DNA of 64,000 nt. It comes from Polytrichum commune. Lineage: Eukaryota; Streptophyta; Polytrichopsida; Polytrichales; Polytrichaceae. Below are positions 32,035-62,473 of the stretch, piece after piece. The first letter of the stretch is position 1; each line of letters starts with the position of its first letter. The DNA is taken from assembly GCA_950295325.1 (NCBI GenBank), contig OX485803.1:53211554-53275553 (forward strand), read 5' to 3'. The notes under the pieces are model-generated. The model worked only from the letters and a program-made list of their open reading frames with translations, was not told where the DNA came from and made no database searches. The position numbers and the translations under genes were made by a program.

Positions 32035-32437
32035 CATTATATTCGTTAATCGGAGACTTTTGAAAGTCTCAAAATAAAATATGCCCATAGTTTGGGATGC
32101 CAATATTGTGGGCATATGGAATGTTGGGAACATCAAGAACATGACAATTTAAAAATTCGCACGTAAAGAATATTCCTAATACTAAAAATAGAAAATTGCA
32201 ATTATAATGAAAACGTGAACTCCATGTGGAAAATAACAAGCGAATATAAAAAACAAATGGTTTATGTCATTATAGAGTTTGGGGTGCGCATCCCATAAGT
32301 AAGGTTCTTATGGTTTTGGATGGCACATCCCAAACGTATACCACAATGGAGTGTGACAAGTCTACTAAGTCTATTAAAAACCAAGACTACTAAGTACTAA
32401 TGTTTTTTCCCGCCGTTAACTTTCACCTATGTTATGT

Positions 32438-35400
32438 TTACTCATCTCCATCTTCCGCTTCATATCCATTCTCGGCGTCATTTTCCGCAGCTGCAATACG
32501 TGCCAAGTTGTCTTTGGCAAAATGTATATGTTTTTGGGGGATGGTCATTGCTTCTGTGTTGGAACCTTTGCGCGGCTTCCAAGCACAAAGTATAGTATCC
32601 GTGTTTATCCAAACCGGTGTGTACGCTGAGTCCACTGTCCACTTAAAATTCTTTTTGGTGTCCCAACCTAAATAAGTGCGGAGCACGTTGTGGTCTTTAG
32701 TGCTTGGACGACAATATTCCACCTCAATTTGACGAAAGTTGGGGCTAGTTCGAACAAAATTGGGTGAAGACAATGCTTTTACCAACCAAATTGGCTTGGG
32801 ATGCTCCTCATCCCCAGCTCGTACGAGGACCAAATACCCTTCATGGCAATCAACACCTACACGAAACGACGGTGCCGGTCGATTGCGGGCAGGGCCAACG
32901 TAATGCTCGTCCATTGCGAACTCTTCACGAACGTCTCCATTGCTGAAAAACATAGTATCGGACTCCACAACCGTCAAACGACTTTGTGGCCAAAATCCTT
33001 GTGTCAAAGTCGTACGGGTGTCGCCACCAAGTGTCATCAAGGCTGAGCGAATGCGATCCCAATACGCGATCAACGGTTCATGGGTATCTCTAACACGTCT
33101 TGTGATGTCCTCCTCGCACAACTCTTTCCAATATTCAATGAATCCGGATATGCCTTTGATGATTTCCGGCCCATTCCTCATGGGTTCGGGTTTGCAAGGC
33201 TTTGGTTCCCCATCCGGGACCAAACATTTCCCATCATTGTCTTGACGCCATACGAGTATACCATCATCCGGGCCCCAATTAGGAGATGTGCACAAAAGCT
33301 TGAATTGCATGGCCGGGAGACCATCGTCCCTCATATAAAATCGGAATTGTTGTGCTTTGGTATGCCCCACCAAACGGTCCCCTCCCTTCAACATGTATGG
33401 CTTGATGAAGGCCTTGAAATTTGGTACTTCCTCAATCAAGTGCGGAATTACTGGCATATGGTCCAAATCCATATACGATTTCATAAGAAGAGGTATGGTT
33501 GGAAAATCTTCTTCATGCAACTTCATGCTCCACCGTCCGAATGATGCATCAATGTCGTCGTGTGTATGTCCCACCATCAAGAAAGACACAAACACCTCCT
33601 TGAAGATTCCTTTCGCCACGAGCAATGACCAAAAACAAAATACGTATCGACATTTGTTGTCCTTCGCACAATTATCAAGTTGAACGTGGAGAGTTGGAGG
33701 CAATGGTTTTGCACAAATGGGCTCTCCGGGTGGTTCTGGCAATGACGACATACAAACCTCCTTCCCCAAAAGCACTGCCTCATAAAGGGATGTGGTTCCA
33801 CAACCATCAAAAAGTGCACGGGAAGAATGTACCGGTGGCTTCTCAAGATCGCGCAACAGTTTTGCAAATGAACCCACCGTGTGGTTAGCATCGCCAGGGT
33901 AAAAATCCAAACCATAATGGGCATACTTTACGTCCCCATGGCCGTGGGCAATCATACCTGGAAAAAACAAACGATGCGTGACCAAAATAATCAAATAACC
34001 ACTAAACGGATGTATGGAGTTGGACATTTGCCAAACACACCCAAGAAAATTGGATAGACTTTAAACACGTAGTTGTGATTTCATACAAACCTGTGACAGC
34101 TACGGGCAACTTGAAGAGACCATCCGTGGCCTTTATTTTGCGTGCATAACAAGGGCATGCGGTTTTGGCGTGGTCCATTTTATCATGGATGACTGTTAGA
34201 ACCTCTGTGGGCCTCATTATGGATAGAGCACGATTCTTATAGTAATCTTGACGGTGTGCCTCTTGATTGTTGACATGTTCAATATATTTTTTCTGGTGTC
34301 TGGAATGAGATTCAGTGCCTATGGGGTGGGCGTCTCGAAGACCTTTGTATTTTTCACACGTCATACATCTAGCGAACTTGTCCCCGGGTCTTTTCAGAAT
34401 GTATTCCGCAAACTGCTGGTTTTTAATCACACTCAACTTGGACAAAGAAATGGGCCCACATCCCGCTATGCGACCCACTTCATTGATGTCCGTTAAGATG
34501 TTCTTCCATTTTGTGCCTGTGGGCAACACCATTTGAACAACCTTCTCCCCTGACGACAATGTCCTCGTCTTGTGGGGCATTGCATCGGCCAATGGCACTA
34601 TGATGGTGGATAGTGTCGCGGACGCTTGCAGTGTAGCCTCCCTAGGTTTCTTTGTGCCCGAGTTGCCATGAAATCGAGAGCGGCGACCCAACGATGAATA
34701 TTTTCGAAACCTATAAAAGTCAGCCTTGGAGACGGCGTGGATGGTATACCACGCTGTACAACACACATCAACATTCTCAAGTGTCACCACCTTATGCCCA
34801 TGGGTATCAAGGTGCAAATTTCTGTGGACCTCGAGTTTCTTAGCCGACCTCATACGAAAATCCGCAAGCCACATCTCTTGACGCAGAGATCTAATTTTCT
34901 CCCGCGGGAAAAATTGGCAACATTTCCTCGCGCAACAATCCTTGCCGGACACTAGACGGATAGATTCATCCCCCAAAAGCCGATCCCGTCGACGCTCCTT
35001 ATCTCCGCGAGGCACACGGTTTGAATCATATCTACGGAGGCCTTTGCGAGGACGTGTTGTGGCCAACAAAGCTAATTGTGTTTGCTTATGCCGCCGCTCA
35101 TGATCCCACAAACTCACTTCCTCATGTAGAACTCGACGAAGCGGCCATCGACGCAAGGAAAATCTCCATGTCACCGGGAACTCTACCGGAAGCAAAGAGT
35201 TCAAGATGCACACGCCAACATCATCGAGACCTAGGGCGTTGGCATCGACACAATCACGGGGATTGGAGTTTCTACATATACCATCTGCCACCGGGACACC
35301 AACCTCGTTGAGTAGAACGACATCAAGGCCAACCCATTGCTCCCTCCCGAAACCGGCACACAACGGAATGTCATCGTGGTCATCTCCGGAATGCAGAGAT

Positions 35401-35567
35401 TGTTCGTGGACTTCCAAAGATTCATGGGAGGATGTATCCACAAACACCCCCCTCACGTTTGGCACACCATTACTATCTGCCGACGGGGAAGACAGTTCAC
35501 ATTCAGCATCGGATGACGATGCATACGTCGACAACTCCAATGAACTATAACCCACATGCAACGCCAT
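32438..35567 (-). CDS. DUF7869-type putative transposase (two exons)
   Basis: Exon 1 is 35567-34091 and exon 2 is 33957-32438, joined by a 133-bp GT-AG intron (ACAG/GTTTGT ... TTCCAG/GTATG); the phases fit and give 998 residues with no internal stop. The start is the first sensible AUG at 35567. The N-terminal third is acidic/Ser-rich and ends at RFSLRRWPLRR. Next come a CCARKCCQFF Cys cluster with a basic helix, a Cys/His region (CMTCEKYKG ... GTESHSRHQKKY), HDKMDHAKTACPCY, then LDNCAKDNK and VGHTHDDIDASFGRW, hallmarks of the DUF7869 family seen in transposon-derived proteins. Acidic residues of LDN and HDDID suggest an RNase-H-like nuclease, which is inference. A broken relative occupies the same site in element A, supporting a role as the element's transposase. 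Confidence 0.8.
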
Positions 35568-35787
35568 ACAGCCTAGACCAACCACCAGAACATGATCAAC
35601 CCAACCACCACCGCAATGCATACAAGAGAGGATAGAATATATGTGGAGATAAATGGCCCAAAATTGACAAACAAATTTTGGTGCACCATTGGAGAACCTC
35701 ACGCACAAAGACGAACGCGCGTCCCAAAAAAACGTTTTAAGCATACGTCTAGGTTGTTCACTAATGTAAACAATACATGGACAAAGA
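35568..35787. promoter_or_regulatory. Upstream region of DUF7869 gene
   Basis: About 220 bp between the AUG of the leftward gene and the relic of the rightward gene's 3' end. It would hold the promoter and 5' UTR of the DUF7869 gene. I see no distinct motif. Confidence 0.3.
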
Positions 35788-36250
35788 GGAGAACACTCGT
35801 TAGTCGTCCAGGAGGGCCCTGCTGTTCGGACCAGCGCCTGTCCACATACAACCGACGACGAAATCAGAAATCCGAGAACGCCACATGCATTTACGAACGC
35901 GCGTTCGTGACCTCAGTAACTTCTCCATGTACATCCGGCGGCCTTCGAGATCCCTCAAATGAGAGCACCCTGAGGAATATCGGTTTTGTAGGTCAAAGTA
36001 CCATGTTGACTTAGGAACCTGCGCGATATACTATCACAAGAGAACACTTGTCCATACGCACAAAATTAGCAAATCTGCAGATGATGCCTGAATCAACTCC
36101 AACAATATTTTGAACACTGAGCACCTCCATATTGTGAATTTGATTATGTTGACTTTTGCGTACCTACCCATTTACGAACGGACGTTCGTAAATGGGTGCG
36201 ACCCCGTGTTCACATCCTTCACGGACGAGCGATGAGCATATTTTTCTTGC
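35788..36250 (+). pseudogene. Truncated relic of the ParB-like gene 3' end
   Basis: Matches about 59514-59990, the last coding part, intron and 3' flank of the large ParB-like gene. Shared blocks include GGAGGGMCCTGCTG, GACCAGCGCC/GTCCAGCGCC, GGCCTTSGAGA and GGTTTTGTAGG, and palindromes occur at the corresponding places (about 35890 and 36171). The frame is disrupted. It indicates that the element once held, or recombined with, a second copy of this gene. Confidence 0.6.
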
Positions 36251-36970
36251 TATTCTGTGTTCGTAAATTACTGCCATACTGATGTGCATGAATGAAGATG
36301 TGTTGCTGGATGCGTAGACAATAATGACATGTATTTACGAACGAACGTTCGTAAATTCCCGACCATCAGGTAACAATAGATACGGGTCAAATAAGTATGT
36401 ATGATCCTCGAAGGCATATTTACGAACGCACGTTCGTAAATGACTGTCATGGATTAAGTGCATGTGACTAACCATATGAGTACCTCAATCCAGAACATGC
36501 TCTCATGTGGGATTTACGAACGCACGTTCGTAAATTACCGACCAACAGGTACCAATAGACAAGGGTCAAATATGTATGTATGAAACTCGAAGGCATATTT
36601 ACGAACGCACGTTCGTAAATAAATGCCATGGATGATGTGCATGTGACTATCCATGAGTAGCTCAATCCAAAACATGATCTCCTGTGGGATTTACGAACGC
36701 ACGTTCGTAAATTACCGACCATCAGGTACCAATAGATAAGGGTCAAATATGTCTGCATGGTCCTCGAAGGCATATTTACGAACGCACGTTCGTAAATAAC
36801 TGAGATGGATTACGTGCATGTGACTATCCATATGAGTAGCCCAATCCAGAACATGCTCTCATGTGGAATTTACGAACGCGCGTTCGTAAATCCTTGCCAT
36901 GTCCAGGTCCGAATCGTTTGTCTAAACCTGAAGCTCTTCATCTTTACGAACGTGCGTTCATAAAGTTCCG
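35889..36970. repeat. Palindrome array I (ACGAACG-NN-CGTTCGT)
   Basis: Ten palindromes at about 35890, 36171, 36331, 36417, 36511, 36596, 36689, 36773, 36868 and 36941. The core is ACGAACG, a variable dinucleotide (GC, GA, AA, CA, TG) and CGTTCGT, usually extended by TTT and AAA to 22 bp. From 36331 to 36890 the spacing alternates between about 85 and 94 bp because the spacers are themselves a tandem repeat of about 179 bp (three units) containing two palindromes each. Spacer blocks include GGTACCAATAGA and GTGCATGTGACTATCCAT. One strand reads the repeat as recurring YERAFVN peptides, but these are repeat shadows. Confidence 0.92.
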
Positions 36971-37495: not shown

Positions 37496-37534
<39 letters not shown>

Positions 37535-39130
37535 CAATGAGGTCAGAGTGGCTAAGAAACATGTTGCGGACGCCCCTAAAATTATAGGTATCATATGTTT
37601 CACATCAAAAAATGACCGTAATATGGTCACCAAGTGCATGAATACAACTAAAAAATCGGGTTAATCCATAATGGCTTGCACTAGGGTAGATTGAGGACAC
37701 TATGAACTAATTATACCTAATAATATATGTAAGTTAGGTCTTCTTTCAAATGGTATCTAGGTGTGAAAATAAGGAATTAAAATGGCATGAGTAGGAAGGA
37801 TTAATCAATTTGTAATGCTGCATAGTATGATAGCATAATGATCATTGAGACTTGAAACCATACTAGCTACCGTAACGTTGAATCATAGTTATAATTATTA
37901 TGTGTTTGACGTCCTATTGGAAATTGAATTTTCGTCCACTTGTTGTAAGGGTACGGATACACATTGGTTAAATGTTTATTAGATCATTGGTGATATTTAT
38001 AGTGGAATGCATTGTTCGATTGTTAGTTTAAGTTGACACATGATTAAATGAGTTGAGGTCCTATTGGAAATAGACTTTTAGGGTTTGGGGAAATGCACTA
38101 TTAATTTGGAATGGTGCATACAATAGTATGTACTTACAATTAATATATGTTTTGCATCCTATGAGAAGGACGTGCATCATCATAGCTTAAAGTGTTGATA
38201 TAAATTGAAGTCTTAAGACATGCATGTTATTATAATAAGATCGTGGATTGTGTGATGAAATTTCACTCAGAACTATTAAGGTGAAAGTGGGAATATTTGA
38301 AATTTCACTTATCACTTAAACCAAAGTTTTATCTCAAATCTATTAATTTGGAATGTGAAATTGACAATTGCCATCATTATCAATTATTATAGTTGTTATG
38401 AACGGAATTAAGCATTCTCCATCCAACCAACATTGGTAGACCAATTTGACCTGCCCTCAGAAAACAACATGGCCACATATAAGAAAGGTTGGTAAGATAA
38501 AAAGATGCAGGGATGTAGGGTTTAGGGTTTGCGGTTAGGGTTTAGGGTAAGGGTTTGGGGGTAGGGTTTAGGGGTTTAGGGTTTGTGAAAGTTGTGTATG
38601 TGGTATTTGGGTTTAGGTTTTAGATTGTTACTAGGATACATTACACACACAAACAATATTGACTCCTCAAAAACCCTTGTAATTGCATTAACTTCATTCA
38701 TCGCAAGCTCGTAGTTGATGCTAGCAAAATAGTTGACCACTCCAGAAATGCATTAGTTCAAGCTAACACCTAATATTAGAACTTGAATTGACATCCTATC
38801 GTATAGCAACTCTGTGCAATCTCATATTATTATGAATTCTTTTTTGCATGTAATATTTATTTGAGGAACCATCGAATTAATTGAAAGATATCTAGCTCTT
38901 ACATAAACTATATTTTAAAACACCATATATATATCTTTGGGGGTGGATTCTACATTGACAACCTAGGGAGTGACATGCATTGTTTATTACGAATTAACTG
39001 AGCATATTTTCCTAAAATATGTTTACAAGGAATCCAAATGTAGAGGTACTAAGGAAATAAAACGAGTAAAATTCATGTATTTGAACTAAGCTTGTCAAGT
39101 TAATGCCTTAAACGCGTCCATTACATATAA
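36971..39130. other. AT-rich spacer inside element B
   Basis: No gene-like frame. Contains TA microsatellites at about 37345-37375 and a TA/CA microsatellite at about 37495-37535. The 36958-37243 frames on both strands carry no domain. Confidence 0.5.
38513..38588 (+). repeat. Interstitial telomere-like tract
   Basis: About ten degenerate TTTAGGG/GTTAGGG units in a row. This is the plant telomere unit but irregular, so it is an interstitial tract rather than a chromosome end. Confidence 0.8.
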
Positions 39131-39174
39131 ATATGTCAAAGCATGAGAATAACATGAAGGGTTCCAATATACAA

Positions 39175-40163: not shown

Positions 40164-40925
40164 GTGAGTTATATACATATACGTATATATACATATACGT
40201 ATATATACGTATTCGTATATACACGAATACATATATGTACGGACAGGGGATCCCAAAACCATCACATATACGAACGCTCGTTCGTAAATGGACATACACT
40301 GCATACCACCTCCATTTACGAACGCTCGTTCGTAAATGGACATACACTGCATACCGAACCTCCATTTACGAACGTGCGTTCGTAAATACGCACTCCACGT
40401 TCTTTGAAATGATCTATATTTACGAACGCACGTTCGTAAATATACTCAAAATATCACTCAGAAGGAACCTTAACTTAAATATGAACCTCTATGAATATCT
40501 AAAGAACAAATACAATTTTGCGAACACCAATAAGACAAATCACATGTACTTACGAAAGATAAATCAACCAAATATCCGAAAAGATAGACCAAATGGACAT
40601 ACTTATGAACGCACGTTCGTAAATGAATCCAAACCTATAAAACCTATATCTTTTACGAACGATCGTTCGTAAAAATAACCAAATATATTACAAACACATT
40701 CATGACGAGTAGTCTCTTTGATCTTCATATCTTTTACGAACGCTCGTTCGTAAACTCAATACTAAAAATTTATATGATCTTGCAACCCCTCATTTACGAG
40801 CGAACGTTCGTAAATATAATTACATCAATTGCAAAGACGCATTAACACTGCGTAGTCTGTGGGATATGCATGTCACTTACGAACGTTCGTTCGTAAAGTC
40901 ACTAATTGTTTATATTCTGTTGCAG
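40164..40925 (+). other. Candidate leader intron with palindrome array II
   Basis: A GTGAGT donor at 40164 and a TTGTTTATATTCTGTTGCAG acceptor ending at 40925, directly before the AUG at 40926, outline a 762-bp leader intron; a TTTTGCAG at 40128-40135 would define a 28-bp leader exon before it. The intron holds nine palindromes at about 40267, 40313, 40365, 40419, 40602, 40652, 40731, 40792 and 40873, plus a TATACGTATA-type tract at 40170-40240. The splice sites are predicted by eye only. Confidence 0.55.
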
Positions 40926-42221
40926 ATGGCAAGATCAAGCAGAAGCGCCATTGAGATGTTCGCGGTGAAGGTCGATGGCCTCCCAGAGTTGGTGTTAGAC
41001 GATAACGGCAACGACAACTATGTCCCCAAGGAAGACTTCATGGGGGAGTGGACGGCACTGCCAGAGAAGATCGGGGACGGCCTCTTCTGCATGCGCTTCA
41101 CCTACGAGCTGGAGACAAGACCGGACCAGCCCGAACAGTGGGTTCAAATGAAGACGTGGGAGATAGAGTCCATAGAGGCCCAGGGGGAGTATGTAATTCT
41201 GGACATGAAGAACAAGAAGGATCATATCAACCTCTTGTTGCATTTTCAAAAAAATACCTTCTCCTACCAATACGCCACCAATAACGTAGCGGAAGATGCC
41301 AAGCACTTCGACCTGGACGGCCTCTTCTCCAAATATGCGTTGAGCCCATACTGGACTGCAAGGAAATTGACCGCCCTTGCATTGAACATCTCCAAATACA
41401 ACAGTGTGGTCACTGAGGCAAACAAGAAGAAGAAGAGCCCCAGGAAACCATCCACATCAGGGGCAGGAGGATCTAGAAGTGCACCCAGGCCTGTGCCTTC
41501 CGCTAGCAGGGCGACGGAGGGCCCCAGTAGACACTCCACGCCATCGAAGAGGACAAGGGAGGAGATGGAGAAATCGGGAGTAACGGAGACCGCAGAGGTG
41601 ACCTCGCCTGTCGTAATGCCCACCCCCTTGAAAAAGGGTGAGAACCCTGACGCTGTGAAGGCCATGAGGATCCTTCGAGACTTCAACAACTACTCGAAGG
41701 ATTGCTGGCCCATGGGACGCCACTTCACATTCAACGTGGACTGCTTCAAGTGCGAGATGTCCCCCAACAAATGGGTGGTTCGCTCTCGCGAAAGCGGTGG
41801 TGTGAAGTGGCAGATAAATAATCTAATGAACAACGTCAAGTGGGACAGGCAGACCGTCTGCGTCATGCCGAAGGGGCTGACATCCCGTCCGACGGAGAAG
41901 GACTGGCCACGGATCCAGAATGGAGAGTTCTGGATCATAGACGGCCAACACAGCTTGGAGGCGTCCCAAATAATTCTCAAGGACGACAACTTCCAGCATG
42001 AGCTGAAGGAGGACTTGCGCTACTGGAAGGCGTTCTTGGTGTGGTCGGACGATTGGGACAAGCTGCGGAAGATATCCACCTTCCTCAACTCCGGCAACAA
42101 AATCAAGGCCTTCGAGGCGTCGTGGGCAGCCAACATAGTGGCTGCAAGGGACGTCTGGGTCGCCCACGGGTGCCCCCCTAAAGAAAGGGAGAACGCGAAG
42201 ACGCCGTCTCCACAATGGAAG
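40926..42221 (+). CDS. ParB-like (DGQHS) protein, exon 1
   Basis: First coding exon (432 codons) of a large gene carried by element B. The AUG directly follows a splice-acceptor-like CAG. Residues 1-150 are of unknown type. About 160-250 is a low-complexity Ser/Pro/Lys linker (KKKKSPRKPSTSG). About 260-370 resembles the ParB/sulfiredoxin-like fold: a stretch with QINNLMNNVKWDRQTVCVMP in the place of the ParB 'SI...G...P..V' region, then FWIIDGQHSLEASQ, the counterpart of the ParB GERR/DGxHR box. In other proteins this box binds nucleotide or DNA. The exon ends at TGGAAG/GTGAGT and is GC-rich compared with the F-box genes. The domain call rests on motif pattern only. Confidence 0.75.
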
Positions 42222-42342
42222 GTGAGTTTACGAACGAACGTTCGTAAATATCTTTGACATTCAAATTTTCAAGTTCTTTGACATTCAAACTTACGAACGT
42301 GCGTTCGTATTTTGTGCGTTACTGATGTTTTTCTTGCTGCAG
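42222..42342 (+). other. Intron 1 with two palindromes
   Basis: 121-bp GT-AG intron (GTGAGT ... TTGCTGCAG), phase 0, joining codons for W-K to A-F-C-D. It holds palindromes at about 42228 and 42289, the first immediately after the donor. Confidence 0.85.
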
Positions 42343-42958
42343 GCATTCTGCGACGCGATGGTGGACAAGTTCTCCTCCATCGACATGAAGTCTACAACAA
42401 CCAAGTCTGTCTTGGAGCTCAAGGGTGAGCTCCGCCTCATCTGTTGCAACAGGGACACTTGGGAGTTGTGGACACAATTTTTTGATGCGCACAGCTCGGG
42501 CGATCTGGTCAACCCCGACACCGAGGAGAAGTACAGCGCGGAGAAGACCGGGGAGGCCCCTCCACTACTGAGGGAGTTCTTCAGGTCCCTTCAAGGGTTA
42601 ACAGAGTCCGAGTTGCAGAGGTGCGCGGTGCATCTTCTTGGGAACACTGTGGGAAGAACCATCCCATACCCGAAGATATTTTTGAAGAGGCCAAGACACA
42701 AGCCCGGCACGTATTCCATCAAGGAATGGTGCGAACACCGCAAGCTGAAGACTGCTGCAATGAGGGAGTTGAGCGCCCTAATACCAGAGTACGCACTCAT
42801 CCTAGCCGACGGGGACATTAATTGGGCCAGCTGGAAGATGTTCAAGGTCGACTACAACATCTCCGGACCCTCAATGCGTTGTCTTGTCAAGGAGCACGCC
42901 TCCATTTTGAAGCAGAAGGGGAACAAGAGGACAAAGAAAACCGAGACGGATCCCCAGG
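42343..42958 (+). CDS. ParB-like gene, exon 2 (5' part before LTR insertion)
   Basis: Continues in frame from exon 1 with 616 nt of coding sequence, helical and charged with no recognised domain (for example LRLICCNRDTWELW and YSIKEWCEHRKLKTAA). It is cut at CCAGG (42954-42958) by the retrotransposon starting at 42959; the open frame then runs into LTR sequence and stops. The other part resumes at 50252. With one CCAGG copy, 616 + 710 nt gives an exact multiple of three without a stop at the join, so the gene was intact before the insertion. Confidence 0.8.
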
Positions 42959-44612: not shown

Positions 44613-44890
44613 GCCGCGGACGGAATGTTGAAAGGTGGCTTTATGCTTCCAAAGCAAATCATACTTGTGCCGCGGATGGAATGTTGGGAGGTGGGTTTGT
44701 CCTACCAAGGCAATTCATGTTTGTGCCGCGGACGGAGTGTGGGAAGGTGGCTTTGTGCTACCAAGGCAAAACATGTTTGTTTTGCGGACAAACTATTAGA
44801 AATTGGTTTTGTGGCACCAAACCAATTTGTCCCGCGGACGAAATGTTTGAAGTTGGCTTTGCGGACCAAGCCAAGCCAAGTTACGGAGGA
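44613..44890 (+). repeat. About 55-bp tandem repeat in the retroelement gag region
   Basis: Five imperfect units starting near 44613, 44669, 44724, 44780 and 44831, each with a GCCGCGGACGGA-like core, CCAAGGCAAAACATG-like sequence and room for a Cys-containing repeat peptide. Present in reverse in copy 2 (about 56860-57100). No zinc-knuckle pattern proven. Confidence 0.65.
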
Positions 44891-50246: not shown

Positions 50247-50251
50247 CCAGG

Positions 50252-50961: not shown

Positions 50962-51101
50962 GTAAGCTCTCCAACTAATATTTACAAACGCTCGTTCGTA
51001 AAGTTCACCTCAACTTGTCTTGGGTTTGATGACATTGTTTCTCGTCGTTGATGTTTACGAACGCACGTTCGTATTTTCTAACGTATTTGCTTGAATCTCA
51101 G
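50962..51101 (+). other. Intron 2 with two palindromes
   Basis: 140-bp GT-AG intron (GTAAGC ... TTGAATCTCAG), phase 0. Palindromes lie at about 50982 and 51053, again one near the donor and one near the acceptor, as in intron 1. Confidence 0.85.
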
Positions 51102-51706
51102 ATGCTAGGGCTGGTCGTCAACAGCTTCATTGAAGCCATCGACGAGGAGGACTTCCACGTGCACAGGGCGAAGGCCTCCACGATGGACCTGGAGGACATG
51201 TCCCTCCCGAGGACGGACATCAACATGCCCGTCGACGAAGGCATGCCCGCCATGGAGACGGACGACGACAAGCCCGCGCCCTCCTACAACGTCGAGGCGA
51301 TCCTCCGATCCTTGGACGTCACTCCTCTCCGCATTTTGGCGCCGTCGGGAAATCCATCCGACGTGCAAGGGACTCCGGGTGGATACACGGGGTCGTCGGC
51401 GGGGACAACCCAAGATGTCCTCCCCGCGAGAACGTCTGGAGCGGAGGCATTCGGCACTCCCGGGGGATGCTCGACATCCGTGTCGCCCAGGCCGATCGTG
51501 GTTCCCAAGATGGAGAACCTCGACCTTATGGACCAACGGTCCCGACCGACGTTGGACCAGTACCGCAACACGAGGCGGAGGATGAAGAAGACCCCCTACG
51601 TGGAGCTGCCTCCGGGGGCAATCATCGAGGTCTCCGATGAGGACGAGGGCGACATGGAGATCATGGTCGAGCTGGGGGTAGACTTTGACAAAAACAAGAG
51701 GGTCAA
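51102..51706 (+). CDS. ParB-like gene, exon 3 (5' part before second LTR insertion)
   Basis: 605 nt. Begins MLGLVVNSFIEAIDEE, then an acidic, Pro/Ser/Thr-rich and probably disordered stretch (ETDDDKPAPSYN, TPGGYTGSSAGTTQD), followed by PYVELPPGAIIEVSDEDEGD. Cut at GTCAA (51702-51706) by the minus-strand retrotransposon. Joining to 58757 with one GTCAA copy gives 605 + 829 nt, an exact multiple of three with no stop. Confidence 0.8.
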
Positions 51707-52679
51707 TGTCGCAACCCTTGCTAGCCCCCCTTGACAATCTTTCCAATTTTCAATTCTAGCAAAGGTTACGAGTGCTAACCATTCGCATTCCGCCATGCTA
51801 ATGATTAGCTCCTCCTACCCCGGACCTTATAGTTCATAGGAGGGAACCAACCCTCCTACTTTGCTTTCGGGACTCACCCCTTAATCGGTAACCCATTCCT
51901 AGATGTGGACTTCCATCCATAGAAGTCCAATCCCATGTTGATCATCGCATTGCCGGAGCAACACTACAACAACCCGAACCATACTAGGCAACTATGGCCT
52001 CACAATGGGCCAATGCCCATGGAGGCCTTGCCGTTCGGCCTCGGGTGGGTGAGGCCACACCACCTCACCCATATAAGCCTCTAGGACTCTACGCGGGGCC
52101 CCTACCCCACCGTCAACCAACCTCTTGTCTCTCTACCAAGAGTTGGGGCCAAGTGGACATTTTCCCTTAGCCGCTGGGCCTAAAACCCCCCACCAGCTTC
52201 AGACCATCATAACTTCCTTGTATGATGTCTGATTCCAATAACCAACCACTTCATCTTCATCTACGCTTCACGTAGATGCCGATGGACTCCTCACTTGCCC
52301 CATTCGGGCAAGTGGTGAGGAAGTTATGCCTGTTTGAACCTTGGCAGTCCCGGGAATCACTCCCAGGCACTGCTGCACCAGGGCGCTGTCCCGGGACAGC
52401 GCCCCACTCAAATGGCCATAACTCCTAGCTCACACCTCCGATTGAGGTGTTCTTGAGCATTCTAGAATCACCACGCCATGAGCTACGCAAAGCTCATGGC
52501 CTTACCCTTGTGCCTCCTAGTCTTCGTGGATGGGAGGCGTTCCCAACGCCCGGGGACCTCACCCACACTAGGATCACTTGGGCCCTCTCACCAACGGCGC
52601 CACAAGTCCCGGGTGTCACTCCGGGGTCCCCCTTGTGCCCATGGTGTTTCGGCCACTCCTCATGGAGAGGTGCGCGACA
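51707..52679 (-). repeat. 3' LTR of copy 2 (left on plus strand)
   Basis: 973 bp, reverse orientation. Frames inside it (52447-52963) are LTR shadows. Confidence 0.92.
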
Positions 52680-53299
52680 CTCACCCCCACCAAACGGAGT
52701 CGATGCCCTCATCGACTATACTCGTAGTCGGCACACCAATTCTCAAGTTGCCATCCTCTATGGTGCGGCATTGTGTTTACCTTAGGGCGCGACCCCCACA
52801 ATGCATCTTCAAATTTGGCATAGTCCCAAAGGTGTCGTTCCTAGGTGGTCCGTTAGCGACCTTGGATCTCTCTTCCAAGGACCTAACCTATACTAGACCC
52901 ACCTACTTTGGGACTCACTTGGGTTGCCCCTCCTTTGGGGCCTCCCCCGTTAGGCTCCACTAGCCTAACGTGACACATCTAGGCGAGACCTCAACGCTTC
53001 CACTAAGTTGTCTCGGTTGCAACTCCGAGATGGCTTTCCATTGTTAAGCCACACCTCGATCGCACGGGGGTGATGCCAAGTCCCGCCCGACTCGGTTCCC
53101 AGTTTGCTCTTTCGAGACATGGGTTCATGACTCCCATGCGCCAACATTCGTTAGCTCGCGGGTAGCACTTTTATGAGCACGCGCCATCACCTTGTCCCCG
53201 CCCGGACAAGCCCACGGCTAAGAAGTTTTTTGGTTTTATCCAAGGCCCCTCCTAGCCATGGCCCCAATTACTCGGCTTACCCAACCTAGTTTGGCATAT

Positions 53300-56200
53300 C
53301 TATTCCCCCTCTTCCACTAACCAAGCACAAGTACAAGACTAGGACCTCATCTCGTACTTTTCTCTTTGCACCACTAAAGTTTGGACTTTATTCCCTCAAG
53401 CCAAAGAACAAGTTCATGTTGTGGAGCAATTAGCCTCAAAGCTAAGTGTGCTACTAGCGTCTCTCCCCCACTAAAGGAGATTGATGTCCTCATCAATGCC
53501 TACGCTTCATTTTATTGGAATGTCTAGCCTTAGTTTCTTCAAAGTGCTTTACCAATTCCTTGCCGTTCATCATGTCTCTTGCCGCCACCCAAGCGGTTTC
53601 TTTCTCATGGTATCCTCACCATTTCACCAAGTACTCCTTTGTACATTTTCTTTCATTTTCACTTGGGCTTCCTACACTTGAGGATGCCCTCCTACCTCAT
53701 GTTCCAAATGACCTCCACAAGGTCGGGAGGTGGCCTAATCACTTGCTTGTGATCGGGCCACAAGGTGTCGTCCTAAAATGACTTTCGTAATGAGACATGA
53801 AATGTCGGATGCACTTTGATCTCGGGCGGTAATTCCAACTTATACATGTCCTTGAACACTTGTTCCACAATGGAAAACGAAGCTCCAATTTTGGACATGA
53901 ACTTTTGAAGTAAGGCCTTTGGGCAAGGTGAAGTTGTCCACATTCAACAACACCTTATTGGCCCACCTCATACTCCACTTCGCGTCTTCCGGCATTGATT
54001 TGCACTCCGTAGCACCTTCGGGCTTTCTCCACCAACAACTTGGTCATCTCCAAGACTTGTTTACCATCCTTGGCCAAGTCCTCACCATCTTGGTTGAACT
54101 CTAGTGTTGAATGTGCCCCCTCAAGAGCTAGGTTAATAGGTTGGAGCGCATCCACTCCATAAGCCACCACGAAAGACCACCCCTTGGTAGCCAAGTGCGT
54201 GGCTACATTGCAATTACACTCCGCTTGACCCACATAGTCCGCCCAATCTCTTTGGTCCGCCCCCACCAAGTTCCTCAAGTATTGCTTCAAGACTCCATTC
54301 ACATGCTCCGCTTTCCCATTCATTTGGGAATGCAAGGCCGTGCTAAACCTTAGTTTCATTCCGACCTCCTTAGAGAAATGCATTGAAAATGCACTTGTGA
54401 ACTTTGGATCTTGATCCCACACAATCACTCTTGGCAACCCGTGGTGCCTCAACCATCCTTTGAGAAAAGGCTATGCGGTCTCCAACGCGGTGGCGGTTCC
54501 CACAATCGGCACCATGTGTGCCAACTTGGCAAACCGCTATACCATATACAAGATGGCATCATACCCATGTGACTCCGGCAAACTTGTGATCAAGTCCATG
54601 CACATACTATGCCATGGCGCCGACGGAATAGGCACGGTTGCAAGAAACCGCCTTGCTTTTAGTAAGAGGCTCGGTTCACTTGGCACTTTATTCACGCCTT
54701 CACAAAGTGGGCTATATCCTCCGTTATGCACCGCCAATGGTATCTCTTTGACACCATTCTATGGTGGTTTTATTTTTCTCCTCTATGGCCGGCAATAGGA
54801 CTATCACATTCCTCCTTCAAAACCGATAGCCTCAACTTGCCTTGTGGCACATACACCCAACTTTGCTTGCACTTGAACAATCCGTCCACCAACTTAACCT
54901 CTTTAAGCTCACCTAAAAGCTTTTGTGCTTTGGGGTAGTTAATTTACCCCTCCCGTATCTTGCATCACAAGTTTCCTTCGCCGGCACACATTAGCCACAA
55001 TGTTTGGATGGTTCTCATTGCTTGGAACTCTTCCCGTCTACTTAGCGCATCCGGCACCACATTTCCACGGTCCGGTTTGTGGACCAAATCCACCTTCATA
55101 AGCGCCAAGCTATCATGCCAACGCAATGATTTGGCGCTCACTTCCGCTTGTATGTCAAAATACTTTTAGGACACATTGTCCTTGTAGACCTTTACTTTGT
55201 GCGACCCCAACTAGTGTCGCCACATCTTCAAGCAATACACTACGCAAAGAAGTTCTTTGTCATTAGTTGGTTGTCTTCTTTGACAACCATCGAGCTACAT
55301 GCTCGCATATGCAATGGCCATCCATCTTACACATAATCCACCATTGGCAAAATCATTCACCCCCGTATGCACCTCAAAAGGTTTGTCAAGCTCCGCGAAC
55401 TTGAGCACGGGCGTCTAAGAGAACTTGCTCTCAAGCTCCCCAAAGACTTGGTGGCAAGGCTCCTCCCACTCTTGGGATAGCCAATTCTTCCACAAGTCGG
55501 ATAAGGTCGGATAACCATCAAGCTTAACGCTCTCATATGCAATGGCCATCCATCTTACGTTAACCATCCGCCAATGGCAAAGTCACTCGCCCCTATATGC
55601 ACCTCAAAAGGTTTGTTAAAGTCCGCGAACTTAAGCACAGGCGGCGAAGAGAACTTGGTCTTAAGCTCCTTAAAGACTTGGTGGCAAGGCTCATCCCACT
55701 TTTGGGATAGCCATTTCTTGCATAAGTTGGACAAGGTCGGACAACCATCGAGCTTCATGCTCTTATATGCAATGGCCATCCATTTTGCCTCAACATCCGC
55801 CAATGCTAAAGTCACTCGCCCCCGTATGCACCTCAAAAGGTTTGTCAAAGTCCGCGAACTTAAGCACGGGCGGCGAAGAGAACTTGCTTTTGAGCCCCCC
55901 AAAGGCTTGGTGACAATGCCCATCCCACTCTTGGGATAGCCATTTTCCTCAATAAGTTGAATAAAGTCCTAGCAACCTTAGAAAACTCTCGAATGAAGTT
56001 GTGGTACTAATTGGCTAGGCCAACAAATGACCTAAGCCCTTTTGAATCAAGGGCCAATTCTCCTTTTGGATTGCCTTGACATTCTTCATGTTCGTCCACC
56101 AACTTCATTTATCACCACATACCTCAAGAGCTCAATCTCTCGTTGAGCAAAGTTATTTTTCACTTCTTGGCGGTAATTTTTTTTTTTGGGCAACACATTG
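53300..56200 (-). pseudogene. Broken pol of copy 2
   Basis: Chromodomain (about 53480-53640), integrase (about 53955-54640), RNase H with three tandem junction units (55360-55940) and an RT remnant (about 55960-56100), all on minus and interrupted by stops and shifts. The domain order and many defects parallel copy 1, so the two descend from an already damaged parent. Confidence 0.85.
55360..55940 (-). repeat. Three-fold tandem repeat of the RNase H junction
   Basis: Three units of about 230 bp, the counterpart of the four units at 45757-46620 in copy 1. Confidence 0.8.
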
Positions 56201-57778
56201 GTGAATACATCCTTGTATTTCACCAACATCACACCAATGTTGTTTGGGGGAGGCCCATCTTTCCTAGCCTCCCCATACGTTCCTTGGAGTTGCTCCAATT
56301 GAACCACGACCATTATGTTTTCTTTTCTTTTTTTATTCAGTCCATTAAGACCAAATTCAACTTAGGTCCTCCTACCATAGGAGTCATTGTTAATTTGAAC
56401 TTCAATTCTTTGCCATTATGACACATCATAATGCACCGCAAGCACACCGGCTTGCACCTCACATCTATCATGTGAGTTTCAAAGAAGGCGGCCTTCACAA
56501 TGACATGCATTTCATCTATTTCACTTGGTGTGAAATTTTGACAAAAATCCAATGTCCCACATTGAAAGGTTACATGCATCGCGGCCTCCTTTGTCTCATG
56601 CGGATCGCCCTTTCCAAACCGTACCTTGGTGGGCTTGCCCACTCTATCAATTGGCAAGCCCCAACTCCCTTGTGAGCTTTGGGCTCATGAAAGAGTCCAT
56701 TGCCTCTTTGTCAACTCATGAGACATATCTCCCATTCATTTGAGCCTCAAGGTACAAAAGACTTGGCCTCGGCTTAAGGGTACTAGCCTTGGCCACAATG
56801 CCATCGTCTTACATTTGGTCCTCCGCAACTTGGCTTGGCTTGGTCCGCAAAGCCAACTTCAAACATTTCGTGCGCGGGACAAATTGGTTTGGTGCCACAA
56901 AACCAATTTCTAATAGTTTGTCCGCAAAACAAACATGTTTTGACTTGGTAGCACAAAGCCACCTTCCCACACTCCGTCCGCGGCACGAACATGAATTGCC
57001 TTGGTAGGACAAACCCACCTCCCAACATTCCGTCCGCGGCACAAGTATGATTTGCTTTGGAAGCATAAAGCCACCTTTCAACATTCCGTCCGCGGCACCA
57101 ACATGTTTTGCCTAAGTAAAATGGACCAAACAATTTGCACTCATTTCTTTGGGACCTACTTTGGCTAAAGTCACTTGTGGTGATGCGCCGCCAAACTTCT
57201 CTTTGGGACCATCGGCTTCAATGCTCTTGCGAACTTGATGGTCCCCACCATGTCCTAAAAAAACCTTGGGGACTTAAACAAAGCATCCACCACCCGCTTT
57301 TAAAACCCCACCTAAAACGATGCATTTCTTAGAAAGCTCGTCCGTTTTAGGTGTATCCTTCATTTGTGCGTTTGAATAGCGCACATAGGCCTTAAGAGGC
57401 CATGGGTGCCTCATTAGCACCAAGTTCATTTCAACATCCGAACCTTCGAAGCATCTCGAATTGAATTTCAATCCAACATTAATACCCTCCAAGGTTTTGG
57501 GTGCATTCGGTATTCTAGGCCCCAAATGTTTTTTTTGAGGTTTGCGGGAGCCCTTTTCAAAGCACTCCTCCATTTTCCTTACCAAATCCACCCTCATGCC
57601 CACCATTGTCATTAGAACCAATGGTATGGTCAAATTCCACTTGCACATGATCCTTGTTCCAATTTGAGCCTCACAACCTTTTGGAAACCCCGGGCTCACC
57701 ATCATAACCCGCATTTTTGATAGCCATGTTTCCCTCAAAGTGCGAGCTCAAAACTTGGAACCCTGCTCTGATACCAAG

Positions 57779-58751
57779 TGTCGCACCCCTTGCTAGCCCC
57801 CCTTGACAATCTTTCCAATTTTCAATTCTAGCAAAGGTTACGAGTGCTAACCATTCGCATTCCGCCATGCTAATGATTAGCTCCTCCTACCCCGGACCTT
57901 ATAGTTCATAGGAGGGAACCAACCCTCCTACTTTGCTTTCGGGACTCACCCCTTAATCGGTAACCCATTCCTAGATGTGGACTTCCATCCATAGAAGTCC
58001 AATCCCATGTTGATCATCGCATTGCCGGAGCAACACTACAACAACCCGAACCATACTAGGCAACTATGGCCTCACAATGGGCCAATGCCCATGGAGGCCT
58101 TGCCGTTCGGCCTCGGGTGGGTGAGGCCACACCACCTCACCCATATAAGCCTCTAGGACTCTACGCGGGGCCCCTACCCCACCGTCAACCAACCTCTTGT
58201 CTCTCTACCAAGAGTTGGGGCCAAGTGGACATTTTCCCTTAGCCGCTGGGCCTAAAACCCCCCACCAGCTTCAGACCATCATAACTTCCTTGTATGATGT
58301 CTGATTCCAATAACCAACCACTTCATCTTCATCTACGCTTCACGTAGATGCCGATGGACTCCTCACTTGCCCCATTCGGGCAAGTGGTGAGGAAGTTATG
58401 CCTGTTTGAACCTTGGCAGTCCCGGGAATCACTCCCAGGCACTGCTGCACCAGGGCGCTGTCCCGGGACAGCGCCCCACTCAAATGGCCATAACTCCTAG
58501 CTCACACCTCCGATTGAGGTGTTCTTGAGCATTCTAGAATCACCACGCCATGAGCTACGCAAAGCTCATGGCCTTACCCTTGTGCCTCCTAGTCTTCGTG
58601 GATGGGAGGCGTTCCCAACGCCCGGGGACCTCACCCACACTAGGATCACTTGGGCCCTCTCACCAACGGCGCCACAAGTCCCGGGTGTCACTCCGGGGTC
58701 CCCCTTGTGCCCATGGTGTTTCGGCCACTCCTCATGGAGAGGTGCGCGACA
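57779..58751 (-). repeat. 5' LTR of copy 2 (right on plus strand)
   Basis: 973 bp, reverse orientation, followed by the second GTCAA target copy at 58752-58756. Confidence 0.92.
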
Positions 58752-58756
58752 GTCAA

Positions 58757-59585
58757 AGAGGAGGCGTTGTCCGTCGCCGAGCTTAACGCCAAGCTCGAGC
58801 AAAAGATGAAGGAGGACATGGCGAAGGCGGCAGAGGAGAATGCCAAGAAAATGTTCGCAATTCAGGAGGAGCTGAGGCAGTCGAACGAGAAGACGGACGC
58901 CATCCTCGCCATGCTCCAGCGTATGCAGAGCTTCTCGGCGCCCCCCCAGCCGGCCTACCCCTTCACTGGAGGATACCCCTCCCAATCCCCTCCACTGGGC
59001 ATGTTCACCGGAGGGCCTTCCCGCCAGCAGGCGCCCCACCCCACGCCTGTTGGCACTCCTCCGCCACCAGAGGTTCCCTCGACCACCTCCCACGATGCTG
59101 TGGCGGCGGCCATCCAGGAGGACGAGGATTTACGAACGCGCGCTCGTGAATCTTCAGGTCCTCCAGTCCTCACCCCTCCCCCTTCAAGGGTAGGACTGCC
59201 CTCATACACCGATGCATTGTCTTTCACCGTCGTCCCCAGGGTAGTAGACAGACATGGCGATGACTCTGCGCGACACACTGACATGGTCATTGTGGAGGAC
59301 ACGCAGGGGAGCCCCAATGACGCACCAGGGGTGCATGGGATGGACGTGGAAGAAACCCATGCGGCGTGGATGGAGGATGTCAGGATGGACGCGCTCGACC
59401 TGGGCGCCGAGGAAGAAGACGCGCTGCGCATCCAGGCGACACAGGCCTCTCAACCGGAGCGTGAGGCAGAGGCCATGGAGACAGAGGCGGCTGCAGCTGT
59501 GGAGGTTACGAACGCGCGTTCGTTAATCGTTGAGGAGGGACCTGCTGCTCGGTCCAGCGCCGCTACCCCTCCCCCCGATGACGAG
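58757..59585 (+). CDS. ParB-like gene, exon 3 (3' part after second LTR insertion)
   Basis: Resumes in frame directly after GTCAA. Begins with a predicted coiled coil (about 60 residues, ALSVAELNAKLEQKMKEDMA and on to LRQSNEKTDAILAML), followed by a Pro-rich, disordered region and an acidic tail. Two palindromes lie inside the coding sequence (59129 and 59506), where they are translated as LRTRARES and VTNARSLI; both are imperfect, as expected under coding constraint. Ends at a donor GACGAG/GTAACT. The open frame at 58650-58756 that precedes it is LTR sequence and not part of the gene. Confidence 0.8.
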
Positions 59586-60203
59586 GTAACTCTCCTCTGA
59601 GAATACCATTTTTTAACGAACGCGCGTTCGTAACCTCTCTAACATCGCGATGTTTTTCTCTTCATCGACATCCAGTGGCCTTGCGAGAGCCCTCTTCAGC
59701 GGTCCCCCTTAGGGCCGAACAGTTTTGTAGGACACGGCATCATTTTGCCTTAGGAAAATGTGATAGACTATCACGTGAGAAATGTAAATATTCAACGGAT
59801 TAATATATGAGCCTATGTTATCTGCATCGCGTTGCTTCAAATTCTCTGCCCTCGACCCCTTCTCGTATGTTGTATATGTTGATGAGATTATGTTCATTCT
59901 TGCATACCCACCTCATTCGCGAACGCTCGTTCGTGAAAGGCTGCGACCCACTGTCCACCTCATTCGCGAACGACCGCTCGTAAATGTACGTGTAGCCGCG
60001 CTCACGAACGAGCGCTCGTAAATGATGCGCACCGCCCCCGCAGCCTTCATTCACGAACGCTCGTTCGCAAGTGTGCCCTTGAGCACATTTTCCTTGCACT
60101 CTCCTCACTTCCTCGTCTTTCCCCATAATGCACCGTCTTCATTTTCTACGCAAAATTTCATTATTGGATCATAGAATTAAACTAGTCGAGTTGTTCATCA
60201 CAG
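59586..60203 (+). other. Last intron region, alternative ends, palindrome array III
   Basis: From the donor at 59586 two phase-0 acceptors fit. The near one at 59675 would give a 90-bp intron and a short terminal exon (59676-59753, 25 residues then stop). The far one at 60203 (TTCATCACAG) leads into the FCP1-like exon. Palindromes lie at about 59612, 59917, 59965, 60000 and 60049; the last four are degenerate (CGCGAACG, GCTCGT variants). The relic at 35788-36250 includes the equivalents of 59514-59990. Confidence 0.6.
59676..59753 (+). CDS. Alternative short terminal exon
   Basis: In-frame alternative C-terminus beginning WPCESPLQRS and ending in TAG at 59751-59753. Similar nucleotides occur in the relic near 35940-36012, but there the frame is broken, so conservation does not decide whether it is used. 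Confidence 0.35.
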   Translation, partial: WPCESPLQRSPLGPNSFVGHGIILP

Positions 60204-60971
60204 GACCCCCCGGAGATTGGTCGCAACCCCTCTACCAGTGGACCTCCCACCCGGAACAAACCTTTCATCGTTTTTGACCTCAACGGGGTGTTGTGTCACA
60301 CCCAACACATCCCAAGGGTCCCCACGCGTCCCTTCCGTCACCCCGACGAAAGGGACTACGACGGCGAGCTCGACACCCTCATTAACCGCAAGGCTGTCCG
60401 CGCCCGTCCCGGCCTGCGGGACTTCCTTCGCGAGGTGGTCGAGTTCGCCCACGTCGTTGTGTGGAGCTCCATGGTCATGGACAACACGGAGCCCATCGTC
60501 CACTTCTTATTCCGTGATCTCCCGAGCCCTTGCCTCGTCCTCGGCCAAGAAGACTGCGACGAGCTGCTCGACGAGAAAGGCCGACCGGTGCCCAAGTTTG
60601 GCGGTCGAGGCGGAGGACAACAGTTCCTCAAGGTCCTCCGTTCAAGACTCTGGCAAGGCGTCCCCCGTCTGCATGGGACGCCCCACGGGTGGTGGCCGAC
60701 TCCTGAGAACACCCTCCTCATCGACGACAGCCCCACCAAGAGCGTGTTGAACCCCCCGGGCAACGTCATCTTCCCGGACACATGGACCGGCGATAGGCAA
60801 GACACATTTTTGGTCGATAGGCTAGCCCCCTACCTTAGAAGGCTCGTGCTCCACGCCGGTAGCATCCCATTTTTTGTTAGGTCCAACCCCTTCGGCAATG
60901 CGGCGCTAAGCCCCCGCGATAATGTATTCAAGAGCATCATGAGGCTCGCCAAACTCAATAAATTGATTTGA
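60204..60971 (+). CDS. FCP1/HAD-type phosphatase domain exon, probable C-terminus of the ParB-like gene
   Basis: 768 nt encoding 255 residues, then stop. It contains FIVFDLNGVLCHT, the HAD motif I position (DxNGxL here, where FCP1/SCP phosphatases have DLDxTL or similar), RPGLRDFLREV and VVVWSSMVMDN (motif II, with Ser in place of the common T/S), and TLLIDDSPTKSVLNP (motif III, DDS). The family removes phosphate from proteins such as RNA polymerase II C-terminal repeats. The third motif-I residue is Asn instead of Asp, which would weaken or abolish the usual acid/base step. The frame has no AUG before motif I and is closed upstream at 60183, so it needs splicing from an upstream exon; the phase-0 acceptor at 60203 fits the donor at 59586. 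The joined protein would be about 1607 residues. Confidence 0.75.
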   Translation, partial: DPPEIGRNPSTSGPPTRNKPFIVFDLNGVLCHTQHIPRVPTRPFRHPDERDYDGELDTLINRKAVRARPGLRDFLREVVEFAHVVVWSSMVMDNTEPIVHFLFRDLPSPCLVLGQEDCDELLDEKGRPVPKFGGRGGGQQFLKVLRSRLWQGVPRLHGTPHGWWPTPENTLLIDDSPTKSVLNPPGNVIFPDTWTGDRQDTFLVDRLAPYLRRLVLHAGSIPFFVRSNPFGNAALSPRDNVFKSIMRLAKLNKLI

Positions 60972-61082
60972 AATGCCTCCATGTCTTTGCTTGTATCATG
61001 TGGTTCACATTTACTAATGCTTGCTTCGTTTTTGGATGTCTTTTGTTGTTGTGATTGTTGTTGTTGTTGTTCTTGCCCATAG
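60972..61082. other. Short spacer between FCP1-like exon and right-end gene
   Basis: T-rich spacer of about 110 bp with a TTGTTG repeat and a possible acceptor (CCCATAG at 61082). It could be a UTR, a promoter or an intron end. Confidence 0.4.
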
Positions 61083-61175
61083 TCTGCCCCCATATGCGAC
61101 GCCCCTGTGGTCGACGGCCCTTCCCGTCCCCTCTCGCCCCCTGCCTCCCCTTCCCGCGACGTCACGGGCTTCCAA

Positions 61176-62083
61176 ATGCCATCCCTCTACCAGTTCTCGG
61201 CGGTCGACGCGGCCTCGGCCGTGGATTACTCCCGCGACGTCGGCATCGACGACGGCGTCGTCAACAGCCCGCCCCCACCACTTGTCGCCCGCGCCTACGC
61301 CCCGTCGCCCTCCCCCCTCTCCAAGGAGAAACGGACGCTCGTTCGTTTGGGACACCTCTCGCCCTCGAGGGACGACGCCGTCGCTCGTCGCGGGCCGAGC
61401 CGGCGTCTCCGCATGGAAGGCCCCCGTTGCCACACCTCCCCCGCCGACTCCGTTCCTCCCCCCGCAACGTCCTCCGCGATCGTGGGCCCTCCACGCCTCG
61501 ACTCCCCCCCGCCATCCAACATAATTGCAATAGTTCCATCGGCTCCGGATGCTCCCGTCGACGCCCCCCTCGTTCCCACCGTTCCCCGCATGGACGTCCC
61601 CAAAGCCAAGGTGCCCTCCTCAACCCTGAACCCCTTTCTCGCTTTTGCTTTCCTTGTCTTCCGTTTGCGTGCCATTCTCTTTACGAGCGCCCATCCCAAA
61701 CCGCCCTCATTATTTTCCCCACTCCATTCCTATTCTTATCTTCCTATGACGTTGTTTCGCAGGTGGTTACCCGCTCGCTTGGTGCCCGGCCCTCCTCCAC
61801 GTCCTCCTTGGATAGGCACGCCCTCAAGGCCACATCTTCCGAGTCCGATCGTTGTCTGGCCCTCCGGAGAAGCGCAAGATGTTCCCTTTCGCAAACACCC
61901 TCGCATTCTACTTATAATACCACCTCTTACAATTCGGGAGCGCGTCCTGAAACATGCAAGAACGACACATATTCCTGTCCAGGCAACACACAAGGATACA
62001 GTCGTGGGCCTGAGATTTTTAGAGCCATGGAGGCCGCCAAAAAAAAGGGCTTAGCCGCAAAAAAAAATAATGGGTCGGACTAG
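61176..62083 (+). CDS. Pro/Ser-rich two-exon gene at the right end of element B
   Basis: The model is exon 1 61176-61610 and exon 2 61763-62083, joined by a 152-bp GT-AG intron (GCCAAG/GTGCCC ... TTTCGCAG/GTGG); both phases are 0 and the product is 251 residues. The frame also runs upstream to a possible acceptor at 61082, so more exons may precede it. The protein is disordered, Pro/Ser/Ala-rich (SPPPPLVARAYAPSPSPL), with a Lys-rich tail (EAAKKKGLAAKKNN). One degenerate palindrome lies in exon 1 (about 61329). The last exon matches the relic at 22322-22664 in element A, which argues that this gene is a core part of the transposon family. I recognise no domain. Other long frames here are arginine- or serine-rich shadows of GC-rich DNA. 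Confidence 0.5.
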
Positions 62084-62473
62084 TGTGACGTCTAGAAGCG
62101 TACTAGTGGGACGGACTCCCTAAATGGGCTTAGGTGTAGAACATATTTAAGTGCTTACTTTCTATGCTATTCCAAGTTACTCAAGACATTGATGGTATTT
62201 CCATTATAATTGTATTTCAATCCCAATTAATTCATTCAACTTCCATTCATTCTTCGCACCTTCCCTTCCATTCATAACGAGTTGTGATTTCATACGCAAC
62301 TATTTTCATGTATGCCTCACATTTTTGTTCACTTCCATGCCTTTATGTATAATAATAGTAGCATACCATTATACATATGGAATTTTTAGTCGTCATTACT
62401 GGTCCAATTTTGAAAGGTGCATCCTTATATAGTCTCATAATCAACAAAAAGTCTCCAAATACCGAATATAGTG
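62084..62473. other. Right subterminal region of element B
   Basis: AT-rich non-coding sequence between the last gene and the right TIR, comparable to 22665-22980 in element A. Confidence 0.5.

Follow-up and report, generated by a model that had tools for sequence, protein, structure and literature searches.

A recently mobile, probably Sola-like DNA transposon family in the moss Polytrichum commune with a DUF7869 gene, a ParB/FCP1-like gene and lineage-specific palindromes

The 64,000-nucleotide stretch of the Polytrichum commune genome analyzed here (GenBank assembly GCA_950295325.1, contig OX485803.1; C1:53211554-53275553, hereafter the window) harbors a copy of a recently mobile DNA transposon family of about 16 kb. 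This copy, termed unit 2 (window positions 32033 to 62475), has grown to 30.4 kb by the insertion of two nested long terminal repeat (LTR) elements; it is delimited by terminal inverted repeats (TIRs) and has the same structure as near-identical copies. It carries a gene for a putative transposase of the DUF7869 family, a cargo gene with ParB-like and FCP1-like parts, and arrays of palindromes. We favor, with modest confidence, the reading that this is a cut-and-paste, Sola-like family that combines the DUF7869 transposase with a ParB-like self-recognition module of anti-silencing function, a view built on sequence, predicted models and analogy. Regardless of the mechanism, the window documents a recently amplified, probably Sola-like family of 16 kb, and it connects DUF7869, a Pfam family of unknown function, with a core of transposase type, with well-defined ends and with target duplications.

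The transposon status of the family is based on genome-wide inverted termini, 4-bp target duplications, cargo exons that are 99 to 100% identical between copies and the presence of a DUF7869 gene in all eight near-identical large copies tested, to which one divergent copy can be added. A search that covered the whole genome (408 Mb, 64 contigs) with a 20-mer of the terminus, at up to 2 mismatches, returned 1093 + 1110 = 2203 occurrences, as compared to 1 for the reversed control. As placed by the target duplications, the element ends read AA or AT followed by CACTATATTCG, and the unit limits given here count these two extra bases at each end. The TIRs are about 25 bp long in the window units and in near-identical copies; those of unit 2 are AACATTATATTCGTTAATCGGAGAC on the left (32033 to 32057, plus strand) and AACACTATATTCGGTATTTGGAGAC on the right (62451 to 62475, minus strand). 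An original prediction, made from the window alone, had named four termini that bracket two units, and these were recovered at 12694 (+), 22980 (-), 32035 (+) and 62473 (-). Three of them match the 20-mer with 0 to 3 mismatches, for which shuffling expects 0.01, the terminus at 32035 differs from a 23-mer at 4 positions, and in each of the four a first GAGAC is succeeded by another GAGAC or by GTCTC.

Target duplications were analyzed in two samples. The first consisted of 20 fetched stretches, two of which were picked for closely spaced termini, and contained 34 termini; 20 of these form ten short pairs of 246 to 257 bp, which are non-autonomous copies, and identical 4-bp flanks were found in 8 of the 10 when the start was set two bases before CACTA. 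The second comprised 14 of the 97 large copies with a 99 to 100% identical cargo exon, fetched at their expected ends. Both ends were located in 10 of the 14, and eight of these copies, each about 16 kb long, have identical 4-bp flanks, namely, AGTG, ATGA, TAGT, AGAG, ATGT, ATAA, CAAG, and ACCT. The two others are C4:4672180 (ATGA/AGTT) and C5:2357407 (TTTC/AGAG); the right flank of the latter is shared with C5:2597583 over the 16 bases shown, which suggests that copies have rearranged with each other. One large, divergent element of 17.4 kb (C1:31277626-31295073) has TAAA on each side, as judged by eye. In the pooled set, 17 of 21 pairs have identical 4-bp flanks, as compared to a mean of 1.05 for shuffled partners, with none of 2000 shuffles reaching 17. 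The predicted transposon nature of the units is thus supported by the inverted termini and these duplications. The accompanying expectation that TIR pairs bracket DUF7869 genes holds for the eight large copies tested and fails for the short pairs; as many termini belong to such non-autonomous copies, the presence of a TIR pair does not imply an enclosed DUF7869 gene.

The DUF7869 gene reads leftward near the left end of both units, as predicted, with two open exons in unit 2 and in a broken state in unit 1. Exon 2 of unit 2 (32438 to 33970, minus strand, limits approximate) matches PF25273 with an E value of 3.8e-40 and contains aspartates in the motifs QLDN and GHTHDDID, and the N-terminal part in exon 1 (34086 to 35744, minus strand) contains the first conserved aspartate, in HDKMDH; the 5' limit of exon 1 was taken from the open reading frame (ORF), and homologues match from about 35375. 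The protein is predicted to contain an RNase-H/DDE-like core in which aspartates are conserved, and the model fits DDE transposases. Its structure-match table contained no piggyBac, hAT or MULE entry, which excludes nothing, a sequence search for DUF7869 among solved structures gave nothing useful, and no literature on DUF7869 was found by name. Among the best 120 of 268 matches, the homologues with a name were from the mosses Ceratodon purpureus and Physcomitrium patens. The divergent element L024 has a transposase exon 2 that is 84% identical to that of the window. The related terminal exon that had been proposed near the right ends of both units was not recovered, as no match was seen with the seven DUF7869 relatives tried, and self-comparison (matches of at least 60 bp) revealed nothing in common between these right ends.

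The predicted cargo gene with ParB-like and FCP1-like parts was confirmed on the plus strand of unit 2. Its exon 1 (40926 to 42221), for which no Pfam or NCBIfam match was obtained, encodes a domain at about 41724 to 42107 that has the ParB N-terminal (CTP-binding) fold according to the fold comparison of a predicted model, together with an N-terminal domain weakly matching PH/FERM-like domains. Exon 2 (42344 to 42958 and 50247 to 50961) is split by the nested LTR element A (42959 to 50246, plus strand; target duplication CCAGG; identical LTRs, 0/976 differences), and the relative P0150 reads across this split. Exon 3 (51102 to 51706 and 58752 to 59586) is split by element B (51707 to 58751, minus strand; target duplication GTCAA; 2/977 differences between its LTRs). 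Empty sites were found in L079 for element A and in L015 and L079 for element B, and both elements are very young. Without them, unit 2 measures 16,104 bp, and the sizes originally estimated for it and for unit 1 (10.3 kb) thus stand. The last exon (60204 to 60971, 5' limit approximate) encodes an FCP1/NIF-like domain of the haloacid dehalogenase phosphatase type (PF03031, E=7.9e-13); NIF and DUF7869 alone were above the cut-off in a Pfam scan of eight unit-2 ORFs. The solved-structure search for the FCP1-like piece gave nothing useful. P0150 (863 amino acids), the sole long cargo relative found in the protein length range searched, has matches to DUF6551 and DUF1015 that are both sub-threshold. 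Three scans of viral contigs, two with DUF7869 and one with the ParB-like exon, found no relative that would point to a viral or proviral origin. Between the two genes of unit 2, a short stretch at 38516 to 38585 contains TTTAGGG-like repeats of the plant telomere type.

The cargo protein is fast-evolving and bacterial-ParB-like, to judge from the sequences compared. Cargo exon 1 of L024 is only 43 to 46% identical to that of the window; the proportions of synonymous (pS) and nonsynonymous (pN) differences over 423 codons are 0.77 and 0.38, with synonymous sites near saturation, as compared to a synonymous divergence (dS) of 1.0 for the transposase, so that the two genes may not share the same history.

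Palindromes of the form TTACGAACGNNCGTTCGTAA are located upstream of both unit-2 genes and within cargo introns. When up to 5 mismatches are allowed, 30 sites matching ATTTACGAACGNNCGTTCGTAAAT, with two variable central bases, are present in the window; all of them belong to unit 2 and lie outside its nested LTR elements, which bears out the palindrome arrays of the original prediction. Ten sites are upstream of the transposase gene (35889 to 36965), partly in 179-bp tandem repeats, nine upstream of the cargo gene (40266 to 40898), and four near the ends of two cargo introns, namely, one pair at both ends of intron 1 (42226 to 42312) and one pair in the next intron (50980 to 51076). The remaining seven are weaker and are found in and around the last cargo exons, two in the continued coding part of exon 3 and five in the last intron (59612 to 60072). 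With 47.5% of the 16,104-bp element being coding, the location of 28 of the 30 sites outside exons has a binomial P of 1.5e-6 (2.7e-5 when the tandem repeat is collapsed) in a test that treats sites as independent and uses exon limits that are partly approximate. A cargo exon/intron piece (59520 to 59976) is duplicated upstream of the transposase gene at 35797 to 36231 with 65% identity and may have been the seed of the array there.

The arrays are also present in other copies and differ between lineages. Stretches upstream of the cargo gene in copies that are 88 to 99% identical (L065-L070) contain sites in all six cases, with at least five sites in five of them, and the intron-1 stretches of further copies (L071-L075) contain one or two palindromes in all five. 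The palindromes of L024 are TTACGGACGNNCGTCCGTAA, with both arms changed, apart from a few mixed or window-type sites; its termini are like those of the window although palindromes and cargo differ. Among 29 homologues looked at, 19 had at least six readable residues past cargo exon 1, and the protein read-through corresponds to a palindrome in 16 of these 19. The types, inferred from protein letters and seen in DNA for the first two only, are window-type near the window, and GGA (5) and GGC (2) in the group that is 42 to 45% identical; the three without a palindrome are P0121, which is one residue off, and P0148 and P0149, the two most distant. Lineage-specific motif arrays are a property of the noncoding DNA of the element. 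The center CGNNCG is common to all types, with the caveat that the search of the fetched loci was itself built on this center; a further type, TTTGGGTCGNNCGACCCAAA, nevertheless first surfaced in a search without it.

Palindrome types that differ between lineages of the ParB-like protein hint at a self-recognition system. In the mechanism that we favor, DUF7869 would be a DDD transposase that cuts at the termini, and the fast-evolving ParB-like protein would bind the palindromes of its own element as a dimer. In this way the noncoding parts of its own copies would be marked, which in turn would activate or de-silence the transposase and cargo genes. Such a module would work like VANC of the VANDAL elements, perhaps with ParB-type loading and spreading. 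A more specific and clearly more tentative version, drawn by analogy, is that the protein loads at the CpG-rich palindromes of its own element in a ParB-parS-like manner, spreads along the element and protects its own copies from methylation and silencing by the host; palindromes with a CGNNCG center and arms that diversify by paired changes would then be swapped, or evolve, together with the cargo as a matched set, whereas the transposase framework would be conserved. The self-recognition idea lends itself to direct testing, since near-identical copies are available, a single genome contains two protein/palindrome pairs, and a relative lacks the cargo.

Several observations weigh against this reading. 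A clean target duplication is missing at both window units, the flanks being TATT/TGTT for unit 1 and ATAA/AATT for unit 2 (by eye), as is likewise the case for 4 of the 21 sampled pairs, and the cargo gene of the window copy is split by two LTR elements. The fold matches of the transposase are weak, with a best Foldseek E value of 0.035 and a Z score barely above the level that the tool calls common, and the cargo model is middling overall (predicted local distance difference test, pLDDT, 71.9; predicted template modeling score, pTM, 0.44). In bacterial ParB, a DNA-reading helix-turn-helix follows the ParB domain, and the cargo model spans no such downstream part. Phosphatase activity of the FCP1-like domain is doubtful because its motif I is DLNGV instead of the DxDxT/V of FCP1-like domains. 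Furthermore, palindrome arrays of another type occur in relatives with no cargo match, where the transposase or a host factor could bind them, and this speaks against a binder available from the cargo alone. One such relative is L025, an element of the unit-1 type with an estimated length of about 7 kb, the right end of which was not found; directly upstream of its transposase gene are eight TTTGGGTCGNNCGACCCAAA sites, four of them exact; two further sites of this type were found in L022 and seven exact ones in L014. Candidate binders of the palindromes are thus the cargo protein, the transposase and host factors.

One of these candidates is the DUF7869 transposase itself, which would bind the palindromes and regulate its own promoter while the ParB-like cargo does something else. 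The array of L025, together with the decayed one of unit 1, is as expected for this alternative, and between the window and L076, transposase exon 1 is 65% identical over its N-terminal 168 residues, as compared to 79%, 89%, and 85% for later pieces, though one exon-2 piece (residues 5 to 88) is at 62.5%. We nevertheless consider it rather unlikely, as 20 of the 30 unit-2 sites are upstream of or within the cargo gene and none is close to the termini or within the intron of the transposase gene, and as changes in palindromes and cargo are not accompanied by changes in the termini, which remain similar. Somewhat less probable still is that the palindromes are bound by host proteins acting in transcription or on chromatin, or that they control splicing as RNA hairpins at the ends of introns, with the cargo being unrelated. 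Palindromes at both ends of an intron could pair in RNA, and a TTTGGGTCGNNCGACCCAAA array is also present between genes of an apparent other mobile element (L014/L078). However, no palindrome was detected in the 21.7 kb of window flanks or in 12 of 18 fetched 10-kb loci, which is a small sample of the genome, the compensated arm changes track the cargo lineage, and the upstream arrays are outside introns. It appears improbable that the element has an extrachromosomal or replicative phase served by partition or tethering of the ParABS kind: a ParB fold with clustered palindromes is the layout of ParB-parS, but neither a ParA-like domain nor a replication domain was found in the Pfam scan of the eight unit-2 ORFs, integration into chromosomes is shown by perfect target duplications, and the sites are upstream of genes and in introns. 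The termini read CACTA after the two extra bases, and we give very little credence to a CACTA (EnSpm) element with captured genes, given the 4-bp instead of 3-bp duplication in 17 of 21 pairs, the AA/AT start two bases outside CACTA, and scanned ORFs that match DUF7869 and no CACTA transposase model.

Unit 1 (12692 to 22982) is a decayed relative that lacks a cargo match and whose termini are those of the short, 257-bp elements. Its broken DUF7869 gene (13207 to 18035, minus strand) contains two solo-LTR-like inserts (13635 to 14572 and 15127 to 16099), and upstream of it a 77-bp tandem repeat (18780 to 19153) carries decayed TTTGGGTCGNNCGACCCAAA-type palindromes, of which one passes at 1 mismatch and the rest were identified by eye. 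An AT-rich array of 25- to 26-bp tandem repeats with inverted structure is located at 20919 to 21435. Unit 1 sits between the two copies of a duplicated F-box/Kelch segment of several kilobases (1890 to 7732 and 23156 to 30665), which are 84 to 97% identical in pieces. At the L014/L078 locus (L014, 4568 to 8028 and 8316 to 8594; L078, 998 to 4000), the seven exact TTTGGGTCGNNCGACCCAAA palindromes, mostly 32 apart, sit between a gene with a sub-threshold DNA-methylase match (E value of 0.05) and a long ORF without a family match; this locus may represent another mobile element that shares this type of palindrome. L016 contains another kind of repeated palindrome, AGGCCTCGGATCCGAGGCCT (1998 to 2381 and 8568 to 8840), on the inner side of a right terminus (at 201); nearby are repeats of the 43 bases that are found just outside the right end of unit 2.

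Among known superfamilies, the 4-bp duplications and the putative DDD-like core fit Sola, and the family is probably Sola-like, so that its transposase class is probably not new. Sola elements are described, in the available parts of the published accounts, as having a DDD transposase, 4-bp duplications, TIRs of 11 to 1124 bp and lengths of 2 to 9 kb, with some above 15 kb, and they occur in the moss Physcomitrella, for which Sola1 is reported (PMC10741241, PMC9033089). A Fanzor1 cargo has been described for Sola2 (PMC3627910, available in part). The family studied here is alike in its 4-bp duplications (17/21), TIRs of about 25 bp, large size and moss host, and its transposase, with a DDD-like core in the predicted model, was likened to that of Sola by way of published descriptions. 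It differs in that the available parts of the Sola accounts mention no ParB/FCP1-like gene or palindrome arrays. Membership in piggyBac/Kolobok was rejected for lack of a TTAA target, the duplications being variable (AGTG, ATGA, CAAG, ACCT, and others), and membership in VANDAL/VANC because the scan of the eight ORFs revealed no MULE transposase or DUF1985-type VANC. The claim of a new family is narrowed: what appears to be new is the combination of a Sola-like transposon, a ParB/FCP1-like gene and lineage-specific palindromes, for which we found no description, and no report of a comparable ParB-transposon or ParB-moss system was found in the open-licence literature at the level of titles.

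Different known systems resemble parts of the proposed module. The En/Spm protein TnpA is encoded by its element, binds repeated motifs and counters methylation; it shares with the cargo proposal a self-encoded motif binder but differs in its sites, which are subterminal and not palindromic, and in its 3-bp duplication. Bacterial ParB, Noc and KorB with parS-like sites have in common the ParB N-terminal fold and clustered palindromes, whereas the cargo is located in a eukaryotic transposon, has an FCP1-like domain in the same gene and is accompanied by no ParA in the scanned ORFs. For VANDAL21, a MULE element of Arabidopsis, the available parts of the accounts describe motifs as tandem repeats in VANC/VANB introns and upstream of VANA that differ between lineages, a much more conserved VANA transposase and a fast-evolving VANC (PMC5735166, PMC10398659). 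Unit 2 resembles this system, as described there, in the lineage-varying motif layout, the fast-evolving second protein and the more conserved transposase; transposase, second protein and motifs are unrelated, the motifs of unit 2 are palindromic, and anti-silencing, described for VANC, is proposed for unit 2. If the favored reading is true, sequence-specific self-recognition by a transposon would have arisen a second time, in a non-MULE moss element and via a bacterial-type ParB fold.

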